Assembly: GCA_022448005.1 (NCBI GenBank)
Contig: JAKUTK010000006.1
Span: 44,121-108,120, forward strand
DNA length: 64,000 nucleotides
Direction: 5' to 3'
From: Pseudomonas sp.
Lineage (GTDB): Bacteria; Pseudomonadota; Gammaproteobacteria; Pseudomonadales; Pseudomonadaceae
Of this stretch, positions 25,654-34,689 are shown one piece after another. The position numbers were made by a program, and so were the translations under genes. How positions within the stretch are numbered: the stretch's first letter is position 1; the number at the start of each line of letters is the position of its first letter. The notes under the pieces were generated by a model. The model ran no database searches and was not told the origin of the DNA. It saw only the letters and a list, made by a program, of their open reading frames with translations.

Positions 25654-25851
25654 TCAGTGCTGGCGCGGCGGCATATCGTCAGAGAACAGATCATCCTCAA
25701 GTTCATTACCTGGGATCGCATGCTCTTCCGACGCCCAAGCACCTAAGTCGATCAGCTTGCACCGCTCTGAACAGAAAGGACGATTCGCACTTTTCACACT
25801 CCACTCGACCGGCGCGCCGCATGTGGGACATTCAACAACCGTAGCACTCAT
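25654..25851 (-). CDS. yacG: DNA gyrase inhibitor YacG (zinc protein)
   Basis: Small zinc-finger protein; the E. coli form binds GyrB and blocks DNA binding by gyrase. The 65 residues show four zinc cysteines at 8, 11, 27 and 31 (C-P-T-C and C-S-E-R-C), the following [16 protein letters not shown] motif, and an acidic tail. ATG at 25851 overlaps the coaE stop as ATGA, so it is translated with coaE. Confidence 0.93.
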
Positions 25852-26456
25852 TCCTGACCTCCTCGTAGCGTCAGATAAAAATCATGTAGACGTTTGACCT
25901 CGCTTTCCAGCCAGGCCCGGTCCCGATCATTGACCAGCACATCATCAGCATGACGCAAACGCTCTTCGCGGCTGGCCTGTGCGTTGAGAATGGCGCGGAT
26001 CTGCGCTTCGCTGGTTTGATCACGCTGGATGGCGCGCTCCAACTGCAGCGCCTCTGGCACATCGACCACCAACACGCGCGCAACCTGCTGGTGCTGACCG
26101 GACTCCACCAATAGGGGCGATACCATGATCGCGTACGGCGAGGTCGCCCGAGAGAGATGCTCATCGACTTCCTGGCGTATCAGTGGGTGCAATAGCTGCT
26201 CAAGCCATTTGCGCTGTTCCGGCTCTCGAAACACCAGTTCGCGCAGTGCCGCCCTATCCAGCCCCCCGTCGGACGCAAGAACACCCTCACCGAACCGATC
26301 GACAATCTGCCCCAGGGCCGGACGGCCTGGCTCGACAACCCAGCGTGCAGCATGGTCGGCATCAACCCAGTGCACCCCCAGCCGGCCGAAAGCCTCCACC
26401 GCGGCACTCTTGCCGCTGCCGATCCCGCCAGTCAAACCCAGCACCCAAGGTTTCAT
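25848..26456 (-). CDS. coaE: Dephospho-CoA kinase
   Basis: Phosphorylates the 3'-hydroxyl of dephospho-CoA, the last step in coenzyme A synthesis. The 202-residue protein has the ATP loop [13 protein letters not shown] at its start, then [14 protein letters not shown], the HPLIRQEV motif and the lid helix [20 protein letters not shown] at 26456 is chosen; an upstream in-frame start would add seven residues before a normal family start. It lies between yacG and pilD as in other pseudomonads, but a repeat-rich 379-base gap separates it from pilD. Confidence 0.95.
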
Positions 26457-26598
26457 CACGCACCGTCCATGCTTCAAAACGACGCGCAGTAGTAACGCCT
26501 GAAAAGCGAGGATGCAAGGGCCGTGTAGGGTTCAATCAGCGAGCGACGCACTCCGCCCTGGAATTGGCCGCCGGCTACGATCCGGCTGCAGATCCGAT

Positions 26599-26622: not shown

Positions 26623-26660
26623 CGAAGCAAGACGACGCCAGAGTCGGCTGCCCGCTTGGA

Positions 26661-26771
26661 ACCCTGCAGAAGGCTCGCCTGGACACTGCAAGAGGCCCGT
26701 TTGGAGCACTGCAGAAGGCCCGCTCGATCATTGTAGGAGGCCCGCCTGGACACTGTAGGAGGCCCGCCCCG
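26661..26771. repeat. Five tandem copies of a 22-bp REP-derived unit
   Basis: Units start at 26661, 26683, 26706, 26728 and 26750 with a 22-base period (one copy is 23). The shared core is CTGTAGGAGGCCCGCC with CTGCAGAAGGCCCGC and CTGCAAGAGGCCCG variants. The core equals the first half of the local REP, so the array looks like repeated growth of a REP half. It fills most of the 379-base gap between pilD and coaE; I find no gene there, since open frames in the repeats have no family character. Confidence 0.75.
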
Positions 26772-26835: not shown

Positions 26836-27699
26836 TTAGAACCGAGCGAACTGAAGATAAGTGGAGGTGATCTGCTCACCCCAAAGCAAAGCGATCCAGC
26901 CGGCAATCGCCAGATAAGGTCCGAAGGGAATGGTCGTACCGCTGTCCGCCTTCTGTATGCGCAGCATGATGGTGCCTAGCACCGCGCCCACGACTGATGA
27001 GAGAAGGATGGTCAGCGGCAAAACCTGCCAACCACCCCAAGCCCCCAGCATCGCCAGCAGCTTGAAGTCGCCATAGCCCATGCCCTCCTTGCCGGTCACG
27101 AGCTTGAAAAGCCAGTACACCGACCAGAGACTTAGATACCCAGCAACCGCACCCCACACCGCATCAGGCAACGGCGCAAACAGACCGAAATAGTTGACGA
27201 TCAAGCCCAGCCAAAGCAAAGGCAACACAAGTGAGTCAGGCAGCAACTGGTGATCGACATCGATCATGCTCATTGCCAGCAAACCCCAGGTCAGCAACAG
27301 CATTGCCCCAGCCTGCCAAGAGAAGCCGAAGTGCCAGGCCACATAGCCGGATAACACACCGCAGAGCAGCTCGACCAAAGGGTAACGGCTGCTGATCGGC
27401 GCCCGGCACGACGAGCACTTGCCGCGCAGCGCTAGCCAGCTGACCAAGGGGATATTTTCCCAGGGACGTATCTCATGATCGCACCGCGGGCAGTGAGAGT
27501 TAGGCAGAATCAGATTGAAGGTCGTAGTCGGCTCGACCGGCAACTCCAGGAACTCACGCGCCTGAGCACGCCAGTCTCGCTGCATCATGATTGGCAGACG
27601 ATGGATCACTACATTGAGAAAACTGCCCACCAGCAAGCCCAGCACCAAGGCGCATAAAACAAAGGCCAGCGTGTTGCTGGCCAAAATATCAAAAATCAT
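26836..27699 (-). CDS. pilD: Type IV prepilin peptidase / N-methyltransferase
   Basis: Inner-membrane enzyme that cuts the leader from prepilins and methylates the new N-terminal phenylalanine. The 287-residue protein has about eight membrane segments. A cytoplasmic loop carries a zinc-type tetracysteine: C70-x2-C73 and C95-x2-C98. Catalytic aspartates are in MIDVDHQLLPD (147, 149) and in GMGYGDFK (211). ATG at 27699 is used; an upstream in-frame extension of 17 residues has no family match. It follows pilC by four bases and would process both the short prepilin at 31152 and type II pseudopilins. Confidence 0.96.
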   Translation of the reverse strand: MIFDILASNTLAFVLCALVLGLLVGSFLNVVIHRLPIMMQRDWRAQAREFLELPVEPTTTFNLILPNSHCPRCDHEIRPWENIPLVSWLALRGKCSSCRAPISSRYPLVELLCGVLSGYVAWHFGFSWQAGAMLLLTWGLLAMSMIDVDHQLLPDSLVLPLLWLGLIVNYFGLFAPLPDAVWGAVAGYLSLWSVYWLFKLVTGKEGMGYGDFKLLAMLGAWGGWQVLPLTILLSSVVGAVLGTIMLRIQKADSGTTIPFGPYLAIAGWIALLWGEQITSTYLQFARF

Positions 27700-27703
27700 G
27701 GAC

Positions 27704-28927
27704 TTATCCGACCACACTACCCAGCTGGAAGATCGGCAGGTACATGGCAATGATCAAACCACCAACCAGCACACCCAGCACGGCCATGATCATCGGTTCC
27801 ATCAGTGTCGTAAGGTTATCAACCATGTTGTCCACTTCGTCTTCATAGAAGCTGGCAACCTTGTCCAGCATCTCATCCAACGAACCGGATTCCTCACCAA
27901 TAGCCGTCATCTGGATTGCCATAGAGGGAAATACGCCCGTGGTGCGCATGGAGAAGTTCAGTTGCACACCGGAGGAAACGTCATTGCGAATCTTGGCTAC
28001 AGCGTTTCGGAAGACCACGTTGCCAGTAGCCCCGGCGACCGAGTCCAACGCATCTACCAGCGGCACGCCAGCAGCAAATGTCGTCGAAAGGGTGCGCGCA
28101 TAGCGAGCCACCACTGCTTTGTACATGATGTCGCCAACAATCGGGGTCTTAAGCAGCCCGCGATCCAGGGCATCGCGAAATTTCTGAGAACGTTTGTAGG
28201 CATGCTTAAAGGTGAAGGCAAAGGCGAATAATCCGATCAGTACCAGATACCACCACTCCTGCAACCATCGCGAAAGCCCGACGACCATTTGAGTGAAGGC
28301 AGGCAGTTCGGCACCAAAGCCCTGAAACACGCTTTCGAACTGCGGCACGACTTTGATCAAGAGTATCGCCGATACGATGATCGCGACCACGATCACTGCG
28401 ATCGGGTAGGTCATTGCTTTTTTGATCTTGGCCTTCAGCTGCTCGGTCTTTTCCTTATAGGTCGCAACCCGATCCAACAGGGTTTCAAGCGCACCCGATT
28501 GCTCACCTGACTCCACCAGATTGCAGTAGAGATCATCGAAATACTGGGGTTTCTTGCGCAGCGAGCCAGCGAAGCTGTTACCCGCCGCCACTTCCTGCTT
28601 AACCTCGTCGACCAACTTGCGCATGTTGGGGTTGTCGAAGCCCTCGCCGATGATGTCGAACGACTGCAACAGCGGCACGCCCGCCTTCATCATGGTGGCC
28701 ATCTGACGAGTGCACAGGGCGATGTCCATGGGTTTGATCTTTTTACCAGCACCGAACAGCGAGACGGCTTTCTTGCGCACCTTGAGCGGATTGATCCCCT
28801 GCTTGCGGAGTTGCGCCTTGATCAGCGCCTGGCTTTGACCCGAGAGCTCACCCTTGATCCTGCTGCCCTTGCGGTCGGTTCCTTCCCAGCTGAACACACT
28901 GGTTTTCAACGCTTTCTGCTGCGCCAT
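27704..28927 (-). CDS. pilC: Type IV pilus inner-membrane platform protein
   Basis: GspF-family protein in the inner membrane that couples the assembly ATPase to pilin incorporation. The 407 residues contain two related helical domains: one near FSGQ-like ALCTRQMATMMKAGVPLLQSFDI and one near RYARTLSTTFAAGVPLVDALD, separated by membrane helices (YPIAVIVVAIIVSAILLIKVVPQFE); a third helix lies at the end. ATG at 28927. Only two bases separate it from pilB, and four from pilD, so pilBCD form one operon. Confidence 0.96.
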   Translation of the reverse strand: MAQQKALKTSVFSWEGTDRKGSRIKGELSGQSQALIKAQLRKQGINPLKVRKKAVSLFGAGKKIKPMDIALCTRQMATMMKAGVPLLQSFDIIGEGFDNPNMRKLVDEVKQEVAAGNSFAGSLRKKPQYFDDLYCNLVESGEQSGALETLLDRVATYKEKTEQLKAKIKKAMTYPIAVIVVAIIVSAILLIKVVPQFESVFQGFGAELPAFTQMVVGLSRWLQEWWYLVLIGLFAFAFTFKHAYKRSQKFRDALDRGLLKTPIVGDIMYKAVVARYARTLSTTFAAGVPLVDALDSVAGATGNVVFRNAVAKIRNDVSSGVQLNFSMRTTGVFPSMAIQMTAIGEESGSLDEMLDKVASFYEDEVDNMVDNLTTLMEPMIMAVLGVLVGGLIIAMYLPIFQLGSVVG

Positions 28928-31090: not shown

Positions 31091-31106
31091 TGGCACAGAA
31101 GCTGCT
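31091..31106 (+). promoter_or_regulatory. Sigma-54 (RpoN) promoter of pilA
   Basis: TGGCACAGAAGCTGCT at 31091-31106 has the -24 GG and -12 GC with exactly the spacing of the consensus TGGCAC-N5-TTGC pattern (one mismatch in the -12 element). Transcription would start near 31118, about 35 bases before the pilA start. Pilin genes of pseudomonads are RpoN and PilSR dependent, so this is expected; the PilSR genes are not in this window. Confidence 0.75.
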
Positions 31107-31151
31107 CTTATCTCACTAGGTCCAACGACCTCACCAACAAGGAGCTTTCCA

Positions 31152-31337
31152 ATGAAGTCCATCAAGAAGCAAAAAGGTTTCACACTGATTGAGCTGATGA
31201 TTGTTATTGCAATCATCGGGATTTTGGCGGCTATCGCGATTCCGCAGTTCAATGACTACCGCGCTAAAGCGAACGATTCTACAGCGCTGGCCGACGCCAA
31301 AAATGGAATTACCGCCCTTACAGCTGCTCAGAAGTAA
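31152..31337 (+). CDS. pilA: Short type IV prepilin (PilA-N-like, 61 residues)
   Basis: A prepilin of only 61 residues. Leader of nine residues (MKSIKKQKG) is followed by [20 protein letters not shown], with the usual Phe1, Glu5 and hydrophobic helix. After PilD processing the mature form would have 52 residues, only the N-terminal helix and a few more. Ordinary pseudomonad pilins are about 140-150 residues with a C-terminal globular domain and disulfide loop. The stop at 31335 is followed by further stops in the same frame, so it is not a truncated long pilin with readthrough. Ribosome site GGAG lies seven bases before ATG 31152. It overlaps the next gene by TAATG. Aromatic residues are Phe1, Phe24 and Tyr27 only. 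Alternative: a decayed pilin. Confidence 0.85.
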
Positions 31338-31348
31338 TGGAGAACAAC

Positions 31349-31789
31349 ATGAAAGTTAATTACTTCCTTTTTGCTGGCGCACTTGCTTCCAGCTTGCTTT
31401 TCTCAGGTGCTGTAAACGCAACCGCAGCAGCACTGCCAGACGATGGCAAAGTAACTATTCTTACCTGCGACCTTCTCAATGAAGACGTCACTATCCCGCT
31501 GTCCAACAATGTTATTGCAGCTACCAACTGCGGTGGTACTGCCAAAGCAATTCAGATTGCAACCTGTCATGCTAACGGCCGCACGTCAGAACGAACAGTC
31601 GAAACTCCATGTGGCGGTGCGTCGCCACAACCAGCCTGCACAACCCCTCGGGCAACCGAGGTAGTGAAGGGCGCGACTATATTCACTGCCAGGTCGAATG
31701 GAGGGCAAGTCGGCCCGTCTGAGTTTGATGACTCAGAATGCGTTGCAAGCGACGTCGCGGGGAAAATCCCGGATTTAGATCTGGAATAA
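31349..31789 (+). CDS. Secreted six-cysteine protein, candidate PilA-C-like partner
   Basis: A 146-residue protein that I do not recognise by sequence. MKVNYFLFAGALASSLLFSG followed by AVNATAAA is a Sec signal peptide; the mature part is acidic and carries six cysteines (in TCDLL, TNCGG, ATCHAN, TPCGG, PACTT and DSECV), so disulfides are likely outside the cytoplasm. I choose ATG 31349 because GGAG at 31339 is six bases upstream; an ATG at 31337 overlaps the pilA stop and would give four more residues. The gene is translationally coupled to the short prepilin and ends 50 bases before a terminator. By position and topology it could be the separate globular half of a split pilin, but it has no PilA alpha-1 part. 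G+C is about 51% by hand count over 31381-31620. Confidence 0.7.
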   Translation: MKVNYFLFAGALASSLLFSGAVNATAAALPDDGKVTILTCDLLNEDVTIPLSNNVIAATNCGGTAKAIQIATCHANGRTSERTVETPCGGASPQPACTTPRATEVVKGATIFTARSNGGQVGPSEFDDSECVASDVAGKIPDLDLE

Positions 31790-31838
31790 GCCATGTAGGG
31801 CGGGTGAAGCCCGCGCGGTTACGCACCGCCTGACAACG

Positions 31839-31867
31839 AAACCCTGCCCTCCCCGGCGGGGTTTTGT
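31839..31867 (+). terminator. Rho-independent terminator after the pilin pair
   Basis: Arms AAACCCTGCC (31839-31848) and GGCGGGGTTT (31855-31864) pair fully if one G-T wobble is allowed, with a six-base loop, followed by T residues. It ends the pilA transcript before the ABC transporter genes. Confidence 0.75.
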
Positions 31868-32148: not shown

Positions 32149-32958
32149 ATGCTGAATTCATCTAATATCTCAACCAGCTTCCGCCTCGCGCATCGCGCCC
32201 GCTTCGGCTGGCTGGCCGGCGGCGCATTGATTGTATTGATCATCGCGGCTCTGCTGTCCGCTCAATTCAGCGGTCGCCAACCCGCCACGGTGGCGATGGA
32301 TATCGGACTGTCGGTAATTCGCCTGCTATTGCCCCTGATTCTCGTCTTGCTGACTCAAGAAGTTCTGTCTCGCGAGTTCGATCGACGCTACTTTCTCAAT
32401 ACGTTGTCCTACCCGCACCCCCGCCATGCGCTGTTGCTAGGTCGCGCGCTGGCCGTCGCCGCGCTAACGCTCGGGCTCCTGGCCGTTATGGCATGCGCAT
32501 TGGCTACGCTAGTCTGGCTGACTGGCCAGGGCTATGCGCAAAGCACGCCGGTGGCGCTAGGCAAGAATTACCTGATCACCATCGGCTTTATCGGTCTTGA
32601 TCTGCTAGTACTGACCGCTGTCGCCACCCTCCTCGCGGTGGTCGCCACTACGCCCAGCTTCGTCTTGATCGGCACCTTTGGTTTTATGCTCGTTGCTCGT
32701 TCGTTCGGCGCAATTGTCGATCTGCTGACGCGTGATGCCTCGGTGATCGGCGACGCGGAAAGCTACCGTTCAGGCGTCAATCTGTTGAGCTACCTGCTGC
32801 CTGACCTAGGAGCACTGGATGTGCGCATGATCGCGCTGTACGGCAAGCTGGAACTACTGCCCGCTGACTGGCCGTGGCTAGTGCTATCGAGCCTTGCCTA
32901 CACGGTCGGTTTGCTGGCACTGGCGGTATGGGCGCTGCAACGCAAGCGTTTCGCCTGA
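32149..32958 (+). CDS. ABC-2-type transport permease (PilI-like)
   Basis: A 269-residue membrane protein with six predicted helices at about 21-38, 52-70, 99-124, 142-166, 169-190 and 244-263, the ABC-2 export permease topology. The segment EVLSREFDRRYFLNTLSYPHPR between helices 2 and 3 resembles the coupling loop of such permeases. ATG at 32149. The next gene starts two bases after its stop. With the ATPase at 33793 it forms an exporter; in Myxococcus xanthus the pilG, pilH and pilI genes beside pilA encode such a transporter needed for pilus formation. Substrate unknown here; the assignment to PilI is inference from position. Confidence 0.75.
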   Translation: MLNSSNISTSFRLAHRARFGWLAGGALIVLIIAALLSAQFSGRQPATVAMDIGLSVIRLLLPLILVLLTQEVLSREFDRRYFLNTLSYPHPRHALLLGRALAVAALTLGLLAVMACALATLVWLTGQGYAQSTPVALGKNYLITIGFIGLDLLVLTAVATLLAVVATTPSFVLIGTFGFMLVARSFGAIVDLLTRDASVIGDAESYRSGVNLLSYLLPDLGALDVRMIALYGKLELLPADWPWLVLSSLAYTVGLLALAVWALQRKRFA

Positions 32959-32959
32959 C

Positions 32960-33796
32960 ATGGTTAAACGACGCTCTTTACTGCTAGCCCTGCTGGGATT
33001 CGCACTGTTCGCTGGAGTGGCCGCGTGGCGCGCCAAGCAGCCATTGGCACTCGAGCCACAATTTTTTGTGGATCGCGTGGTAATCCCAGCACCCATTCTT
33101 GTCGCGCTGCATGGCGGAGACCGCTTCCTGGCTGCAGATCTCGAAACCATGCGTCTGGCTGCGACCGGCCTGGATGACCGAGGCGTTGACACGGGTTATC
33201 TGGTCCGTGCTCAGCGGGAGGTCGCTCGGCTCAACCCTTGCCACGAAGACAACTATTATCTGGCCAACGGCCTTCTGACTTGGGGTGGCGCGGTCGAAGA
33301 AGGCAATGACGTTTTGCGTGCGGCCGTTGAATGTCGCTTCTGGGATGAGATTCCACCGTTTTTCTACGGCATCAACCTTTCGTTCTTCCAACACAACAAC
33401 GAAGAAGCCGCACGGGTGTTGGAAATCGGTGCGCAGCGCTCCCCTCAGAACGCCGCCGCCATGCGCAAGCTGGCAGTAATGCTACGCGCCGAGCAGTTCG
33501 CCGATGAGCGCCTTGCCCTCAATTACCTGATCCAGCAGCGCGACAGCGCCGCCGATCCTAAACTGCAGGACATGCTCGACAAGCGCGTCATTCGCCTGCA
33601 GGGTTTGATTGCGCTTCGCGAGGCGCAGAGACGCTACGAGCAAGAACATGGCCCGCTCACAACTCTTGATCAGTTGGTCGAACAGCACCTGATCGACAAT
33701 TTGCCAGCGGACCCCTTGCGCCTCGGCTACGAATTGCGTGATGGGCACATCGAACTGAAAAAACTGAAGATTGCCGGATTGGAGGAACAGCCTTGA
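32960..33796 (+). CDS. Membrane-anchored helical protein (candidate PilG-like transporter accessory)
   Basis: A 278-residue protein with one N-terminal membrane anchor (about residues 6-22, RRSLLLALLGFALFAGVAA), no lipobox, and then a mainly helical periplasmic domain that looks TPR-like: NYYLANGLLTWGGAVEEG, VLEIGAQRSPQNAAAMRKLAVMLRAEQFADERLALNYL split in repeats of about 35 residues. I do not recognise a named family. It lies between the permease and ATPase genes, the same place as an accessory gene would. ATG at 32960, two bases after the permease stop. The C-terminal part has LTTLDQLVEQHLIDNLP, similar to pilin-like or GspG-like tails. Confidence 0.6.
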   Translation: MVKRRSLLLALLGFALFAGVAAWRAKQPLALEPQFFVDRVVIPAPILVALHGGDRFLAADLETMRLAATGLDDRGVDTGYLVRAQREVARLNPCHEDNYYLANGLLTWGGAVEEGNDVLRAAVECRFWDEIPPFFYGINLSFFQHNNEEAARVLEIGAQRSPQNAAAMRKLAVMLRAEQFADERLALNYLIQQRDSAADPKLQDMLDKRVIRLQGLIALREAQRRYEQEHGPLTTLDQLVEQHLIDNLPADPLRLGYELRDGHIELKKLKIAGLEEQP

Positions 33797-34689
33797 GCGC
33801 AGCCGTAGAGTTTAAGGGTGTCAGCCATACCTACCGAGCCAAGGGCAAACAGGTTCAGGCGGTGCGGGATGTAAGCTTCAGCTTGGCCGAAGGCGAGGTG
33901 TTCGGCTTTGTCGGCCCCAACGGCGCAGGCAAGTCCACGACGATCAAGATCATGCTGGACATCATTAACGACTACCAGGGTCAGGTGACGCTTTACGGCA
34001 TTGATGCCCGCCGGGCCGAAGCCCGACAGGGCATGGCCTATGTGCCGGAAGCGCCGGCGCTGTATGACCAGTTCACACCCCTGGAAATCCTGCGCATGGG
34101 CCTGTCGATGTACGGTATCAAGCGCAGCGATGCGGATGCTTGGTGCTTGCAGTGGCTGGAGCGATTCTCCGTGGATGGCACCGGTAAGCGGCGGATGCGC
34201 GAGCTCTCCAAAGGGAACGCACAACGGGTCGCGCTGGCACACGCCATGGCTGTCGAGCCACGCCTGCTCATCCTCGACGAGCCGCTGTCCGGCCTTGACC
34301 CGGTGGGCCGCAAGGATGTGGTCGAGATCCTCAATGAGTACAAGAAACAAGGTGGCGCGATCTTCTTCACTTCTCACGTGCTGCATGACGTGGAACGAAT
34401 CGCCGACCGCTTCGGCTTTATCAACAAAGGCCAGCTGGTCACCGTACGCTCGCCGCGCGAACTGGCGGCCGAACGTGCTGACTGTTTTATCCTGCGTTAC
34501 CAGGCGGATCAGTCGCTAACGCCCGAGTGCATCGCGCTTCGCCCCGGCGAGTTCGAGTGCGAGCTTGCGCAAAGCGAGCTTCCGGCCGCCATCGCGCAGC
34601 TGGGCAACACCGGCGGCCACCTGCTGACCGTCAAGCCTGCCGTATCACTAGAGACTGTGTTCTTCCGCATTCTCGCCGAAGCCTCCTAG
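33793..34689 (+). CDS. ABC transporter ATP-binding protein (PilH-like)
   Basis: Cytoplasmic ATPase of the exporter. The 298 residues contain Walker A GPNGAGKS (41-48), the signature LSKGN (138-142; the second residue S and K are usual for ABC-2 ATPases), Walker B LLILDE (158-163) and the switch histidine in FTSHVL. A C-terminal extension of about 90 residues after the core is typical of the CcmA/NatA branch. The start is TTG at 33793, strongly supported by GGAGG eight bases upstream and by overlap with the previous stop; no ATG is available near the family start. Third gene of the transporter set. Confidence 0.85.
   Translation: MSAAVEFKGVSHTYRAKGKQVQAVRDVSFSLAEGEVFGFVGPNGAGKSTTIKIMLDIINDYQGQVTLYGIDARRAEARQGMAYVPEAPALYDQFTPLEILRMGLSMYGIKRSDADAWCLQWLERFSVDGTGKRRMRELSKGNAQRVALAHAMAVEPRLLILDEPLSGLDPVGRKDVVEILNEYKKQGGAIFFTSHVLHDVERIADRFGFINKGQLVTVRSPRELAAERADCFILRYQADQSLTPECIALRPGEFECELAQSELPAAIAQLGNTGGHLLTVKPAVSLETVFFRILAEAS

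Follow-up and report, generated by a model that had tools for sequence, protein, structure and literature searches.

The window, a 64,000-nucleotide stretch of DNA from Pseudomonas sp. (NCBI GenBank assembly GCA_022448005.1, contig JAKUTK010000006.1, positions 44,121 to 108,120 of the forward strand), codes for a type IVa prepilin of 61 aa that consists only of the leader and the alpha-1 helix. The gene is paired with one for a secreted-looking partner protein, is linked to three PilIGH-like ABC genes, is mostly associated with a distinct pilB allele and alternates with full-length pilA across the genus Stutzerimonas. We consider it probable that these genes encode a split major pilin resembling that of Geobacter (PilA-N plus PilA-C), which would be polymerised by matching PilB and PilC proteins with the assistance of PilIGH. 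With somewhat less assurance, we favour the broader view that they represent a second, horizontally exchanged type IVa architecture in Pseudomonadota. In this architecture PilA-N/PilA-C, an own PilB/PilC allele and a dedicated PilIGH would form a block of ~7 kb that has repeatedly replaced the one-chain system at the same locus within one genus. The features of the locus, in window coordinates, are as follows.

26839..27699, minus strand: pilD, prepilin peptidase (PF06750, PF01478); the left border of the apparently exchanged block lies in or near its 5' part
27704..28927, minus strand: pilC, assigned by ORF position; inside the stretch of lowered identity
28930..30639, minus strand: pilB, assembly ATPase, short-pilin allele (TIGR02538, 859 bits)
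31091..31106, plus strand: sigma-54-like promoter TGGCACAGAAGCTGCT, with -24 GG and -12 GC (GG-N10-GC), read in the sequence
31140..31144, plus strand: ribosome-binding site AGGAG of the short pilin, read in the sequence
31152..31337, plus strand: pilA-N, 61-aa type IVa prepilin, leader and alpha-1 helix only (ATG at 31152, TAA at 31335-31337)
31349..31789, plus strand: partner gene, pilA-C-like, 146 aa, signal peptide (by eye) and beta-rich domain with Cys (ORF, alignment of 20)
31836..31867, plus strand: terminator-like hairpin 3' of the partner gene (sequence scan)
32149..32958, plus strand: pilI-like ABC-2 permease (PF12679, 34 bits)
32963..33796, plus strand: pilG-like 277-aa protein (weak TPR match below cut-off)
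33793..34689, plus strand: pilH-like ABC ATPase (Walker A and ABC signature read in the sequence)

The mature short pilin comprises the 52 aa past the processing site, and the prepilin matches the Pfam N_methyl model at 46.1 bits against a cut-off of 21.2. The initial annotation had described an intact 61-residue prepilin with canonical leader and helix, preceded by GGAG and a sigma-54 promoter and followed by further in-frame stops, and our findings agree with it on each of these points. The next in-frame stop after the TAA is a TGA at 31350-31352, and a sigma-54-like site similar to that of the window was found 5' of the pilin at 15 of the 20 short-pilin loci of Stutzerimonas and missed at five. 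A search of the PDB with the short pilin matched 22 sequences, the top three of which were Geobacter PilA-N. These three scored 55-64 bits, compared to at most 44.5 bits for full-length pilins. Two marks of the Geobacter-type split pilin are hence present in the window: the prepilin stops after the alpha-1 helix, and this helix chain is nearest to PilA-N.

To place the short pilin within its genus, all 57 pilB loci in 56 Stutzerimonas genomes were surveyed. A short pilin of 56-62 aa with a partner was present at 20 loci and a full-length PilA at the other 37. The partner lay directly 3' of the short pilin in all 20 cases (signal peptides judged by eye), and one 73%-complete MAG (G019) carries both kinds of pilin. 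This survey carries out, for the genus, the search for short prepilins beside pilB that the initial annotation had suggested. Its remark that such a pilin is unexpected in a pseudomonad was not borne out: short pilins are not rare in pseudomonads, and Pseudomonas is among the taxa listed by Shu et al. 2016, who defined truncated pilins and proposed their origin by gene fission (PMC5174107). At L060:3494-3673 and L070:3233-3409, behind the partner gene, lies another short prepilin that is more divergent than the first, and in L067 (G051) the partner gene is duplicated in tandem. L061, L065 and L073 (G036, G024 and G021) make up a second subtype, with a short pilin ending in GGIANSN and a different partner family; their PilIGH proteins show 34-43% identity, yet their PilB N-termini are 79-93% like that of the window. 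A second full-length pilin gene is present in the full-length loci L087, L092, L094, L106 and L107, which resemble in this the two pilA genes reportedly present in P. stutzeri.

The permease, the 277-aa protein and the ATPase encoded downstream of the partner gene are, from gene context, what we take to be PilI-, PilG- and PilH-like proteins, named after those of Myxococcus. As with Myxococcus PilGHI, an ABC permease, an ABC ATPase and a third protein are thus coded near pilA. Among the Pfam and NCBIfam models, none gave a match to PilG that exceeded the cut-off. Of the 20 short loci, 19 have matches to PilI, PilG and PilH; the 37 full-length loci, three of which (L083, L085 and L105) hold less than 4.5 kb upstream, have none. 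A whole-genome search with PilG returned matches in exactly those 19 of the 56 genomes. The remaining short locus, L112 (G025), has the short pilin and the partner. PilIGH gave no match there, PilG none anywhere in that genome at E 1e-5, and the locus provides a natural test of the need for PilIGH. One in-frame TAG was observed within the PilG match at G016:C1:1939381-1940205.

A scan of named organisms with a PilG alignment extended the picture to 62 loci, in hosts that include Stutzerimonas, Pseudomonas, Atopomonas, Thauera, Thiohalomonas, Saccharospirillum, Mariprofundaceae, Lampropedia, Vandammella and others. In 61 of these loci, the same strand carries a 56-63-aa prepilin upstream. A second prepilin of 58-77 aa was present in 11, and a motif search of the 62 loci found no longer prepilin on that strand. 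The partner accompanies the short pilin at all 61 loci; 54 partners were detected by profile and seven by reading the next ORF (126-143 aa, signal peptide by eye, directly 3' of the pilin). L192 (Lampropedia hyalina) has pilI- and pilG-like genes and neither pilin nor partner upstream. pilB was found in 46 of the 62 loci, some of which are cut by contig ends, and is divergent in 43. Since the scan was seeded from PilG, short pilins without PilG fall outside its counts. In a separate search of 398 genomes of the family, the partner profile matched 43, which belong to 4 of 19 genera. The initial annotation had compared the gene with the short PilA-N of Geobacter and its separate partner, and the comparison is reinforced by PilA-N being the nearest relative and by the partner standing next to the short pilin in 20 of 20 loci of the genus and 61 of 61 loci of the PilG scan. 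Split pilins have mostly been discussed for Geobacter and in relation to electron transfer; in Stutzerimonas and other Pseudomonadota, our data make them look like a regular alternative form of the major pilin.

The partner gene of the window starts 11 bases 3' of the short pilin, and an alternative in-frame ATG at 31337 would lengthen its product by 4 aa. The protein has no prepilin leader of its own. With its cut site placed by eye, the mature partner has 122 aa, and together with the 52 aa of the short pilin this equals the length of an ordinary pilin. The window partner had no match among the Pfam and NCBIfam models, and its single-sequence PDB search gave an antibody chain as the best match (E 0.2). 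The scan of named organisms with the single protein found no relatives at E 1e-3, and a search of the plasmid collection did not find the partner either. Common to the partners is a core S-x-N-V ... A ... G, often followed by FTG-S-x-G-G-S-V. Type I partners, to which that of the window belongs, have an insert and extra cysteines, and type II partners are shorter. Aligning the mature type I and type II partners with hhalign gave a probability of 32.5 over 41 columns, which leaves their kinship unproven by that test. Two AlphaFold2 models of partners showed a beta-rich domain (pLDDT 79.9 and 84.9), and Foldseek searches with these two models did not return any pilin, nor any match at E ≤0.001. 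Among the loci read, none showed pilin and partner fused into one protein. A simple scan detected a hairpin with a T-run 3' of the partner gene in only 9 of the 20 short loci, and a terminator-based expression model was not adopted for this reason.

To relate the partner to Geobacter PilA-C, several profiles were compared. A partner profile that included signal peptides had a sole PDB match below E 0.01, namely Geobacter PilA-C (9egp_B, E 8.3e-5). With the mature-only type I and type II profiles (A4 and A5), PilA-C was not matched up to E 10. When a broader mature-only profile was built from 18 selected members, 9egp_B came first among 177,635 PDB sequences at E 0.16, followed by an unrelated chain at 0.24. 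In a shuffle control, the printed PilA-C stretch was shuffled and the rank of the real stretch was scored by profile. The real stretch came first of 5001 with the broader mature-only profile; two type I profiles placed it first of 2001, yet second and third of 5001, and with the type II profile it fell outside the best among the shuffles. These results are suggestive of shared descent of the partner and PilA-C, which is probable but unproven, the match being insignificant once the signal peptide is removed.

In the arrangement that we propose, PilD would cut the 61-aa PilA-N, the helix of which would form the core of the filament. The product of 31349-31789 would enter the periplasm via Sec and bind PilA-N as a separate globular head (PilA-C), the pair would be polymerised by the matching PilB and PilC so that both chains are present in the fibre, and the PilIGH-like ABC complex may act as an accessory that assists the handling of the split pilin. 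Compared to the window copies, the partners are 24-63% identical and the short pilins 48-97% (62-97% for first pilin copies alone). A variable partner and a conserved helix fit an exposed surface and a buried core, respectively. This pattern of variation suits a fibre subunit better than it suits a periplasmic chaperone that would stabilise the short pilin from outside the fibre, leaving the pilus as a bare-helix filament. The chaperone role is compatible with the missing prepilin leader of the partner, and GSU1497, the neighbour in Geobacter, is essential to stabilise PilA (Richter 2011, cited by Shu et al. 2016, PMC5174107). Against it stands the description of the major pilin of Geobacter as a heterodimer, made of a 61-aa PilA-N and a 104-aa PilA-C (PMC11046646). 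Taking both sides together, we regard the chaperone role as rather unlikely and retain the split major pilin as the preferred reading.

Both pilB and pilD are intact and are divergent from the short pilin, and the 407-aa ORF between them is presumably pilC, judged by position. The initial annotation had placed complete pilB, pilC and pilD genes beside the pilin; this is confirmed by protein models for pilB (TIGR02538) and pilD (PF06750, PF01478), and for pilC it stands by position. Three imperfect 45-nt direct repeats are located at 26650-26761, between the gene at 25848-26477 and pilD. Elsewhere in the genome are genes for PilQ and for two ATPases of the PilT family, which we take to be PilT and PilU. 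The assembly is a draft of 170 contigs with 98.9% completeness, in which a missed gene is possible, and it contains 15 N_methyl places including the short pilin. The other 14 we take, from gene context, to belong to T2SS, MSHA-like and minor-pilin clusters. Among them is a 152-aa prepilin on contig C3, beside a long PilY1-like frame, which we assume to be PilE. No second candidate for a T4aP major pilin was recognised among the 15 N_methyl places of this draft. A second full-length major pilA elsewhere in the genome, which the initial annotation had named as a refuting finding, was rejected on these places, with the cluster labels given by context. The MSHA-like cluster, the minor pilins and the 152-aa PilE-type prepilin, together with the second short prepilin of some loci, could favour a role of the short pilin as a minor or regulatory subunit, with the main fibre made from another pilin such as an MSHA-like one or the 152-aa prepilin. 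The short pilin, however, occupies the place of the major PilA divergent from pilB and alternates there with full-length PilA across the genus, and we consider a minor role quite improbable.

Similarity to PilA-N also brings to mind an electrically conductive pilus as proposed for Geobacter. The only aromatic residues in the mature short pilin are F1, F24 and Y27, the same three that the initial annotation had counted when it found the nanowire idea unsupported. The truncated pilins of Geobacter are listed as conserving Y32 and Y57 (PMC5174107); the window pilin has neither, which bears on conductivity and not on the split design. With these aromatics missing, the nanowire reading was rejected as very improbable. 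The possibility that the gene is a truncated remnant of a full-length pilA, a pseudogene or frameshift, or a sequencing error can be dismissed almost entirely, as the initial annotation had argued against a nonsense mutation, because a 56-62-aa pilin with its partner is conserved at 20 of the 57 pilB loci of the genus and a 56-63-aa pilin is present in 61 of the 62 PilG-bearing loci.

The distribution of the two pilin types among the species of the genus was examined on a gyrB tree of 55 genomes, from which G019 was left out because its gene is partial. The short or full-length label changes 14 times on this tree, and at least 12 of the changes are forced by well-supported branches. Shuffled labels required a mean of 15.8-15.9 changes, and 81-91 of 500 shuffles were as low as 14. 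Being this near to random, the 14 changes suggest that pilin type barely follows descent. PilB varies along its length in relation to pilin type. In full-length loci, residues 1-90 of PilB are 56-66% identical to the window and residues 301-420 are 92-96% identical, and the corresponding medians of the short loci are 86% and 96%. The link between PilB and pilin type is not strict, since the PilB N-termini of the short loci G009 (55%) and G025 (52%) are as unlike the window as those of full-length loci. A PilX-like minor-pilin query gave scores that, by eye, were mixed among short and full-length genomes, suggesting that this minor pilin is independent of pilin type.

DNA comparison of six hand-picked pairs of neighbours with opposite type revealed an identity that drops at the 3' end of pilC and stays low across pilB, and the region from pilA to about pilH was mostly unalignable. 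Identity recovers ~3.8-5 kb past the pilB start, at first to only 79-82% in G046/G045. A left border near the pilD start was clear in G021/G028, G016/G007, G040/G041 and G046/G045, weak in G030/G006 and absent in G008/G029. These are signs of block exchange between species, and it looks as if pilC, pilB and pilA, up to pilH, were exchanged as one block between opposite-type neighbours. The design of the pilus thus appears to be swapped as a block between related species. Neighbouring species of opposite type make the effects of pilin splitting on phage receptor function, DNA uptake and twitching, as well as the role of PilIGH, directly testable.

Split pilins as such are already known from Shu et al. 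2016 (PMC5174107) and from a 2024 set of 1,955 major pilins that spans 42-297 aa (PMC11046646). The Pseudomonas truncated pilins of Shu et al. may well include the class found in the window; in the parts of that paper bearing on this point, Pseudomonas is one listed taxon and the partner analysis concerns Geobacter (PMC5174107). The term 'ABC transporter' does not occur in its text. Compared to the Geobacter pair PilA-N/PilA-C (GSU1496/GSU1497; PDB 6VK9, 9EGP), the window likewise has a helix-only prepilin followed by a secreted beta-rich protein, and the S-x-x-V...A...KG core of the partner resembles PilA-C. In contrast to PilA-N, the window gene belongs to a different lineage, is divergent from pilB, alternates with full-length PilA and lacks the two listed aromatics. 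Its type I partner differs from PilA-C in the insert and in having more Cys, and the homology is statistically insecure without the signal peptide. The Stutzerimonas split pilins lack aromatics thought important in Geobacter, and they come with ABC-transporter genes.

In this last respect they are like pilA-pilGHI of Myxococcus xanthus, where a type IV pilin gene is clustered with ABC-transporter-like genes and deletion of pilGHI makes S motility and EPS defective (PMC5544727). M. xanthus PilA differs in being one large chain (PMC11046646). The gene order in the window is I-G-H rather than G-H-I; the likeness lies in gene context. The group I-V cassettes of P. aeruginosa (tfpO, tfpW, tfpX, tfpY, tfpZ) are similar in that a pilin and a linked accessory gene co-vary (PMC11841053). 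Those pilins are single full-length chains with a Tfp accessory gene, whereas in the window a 61-aa pilin is followed by a partner and ABC-transporter genes, and pilB and pilC co-vary with it. Some P. aeruginosa pilins have been suggested to have evolved or been acquired to evade pilus-specific phages (PMC11841053), an idea that may extend to the pilin types of Stutzerimonas. In S. balearica, a gene upstream of pilB is reported to be only 39% identical to PilAI (PMC10234333). A search of the open-access literature, judged by titles and the starts of abstracts, found no paper that describes, for Pseudomonas or Stutzerimonas, a split pilin together with PilIGH. As far as the literature searched shows, the features that set the present system apart from the known ones are its alternation with full-length PilA in one genus, its linkage to PilIGH and the apparent block exchange that includes PilB and PilC.
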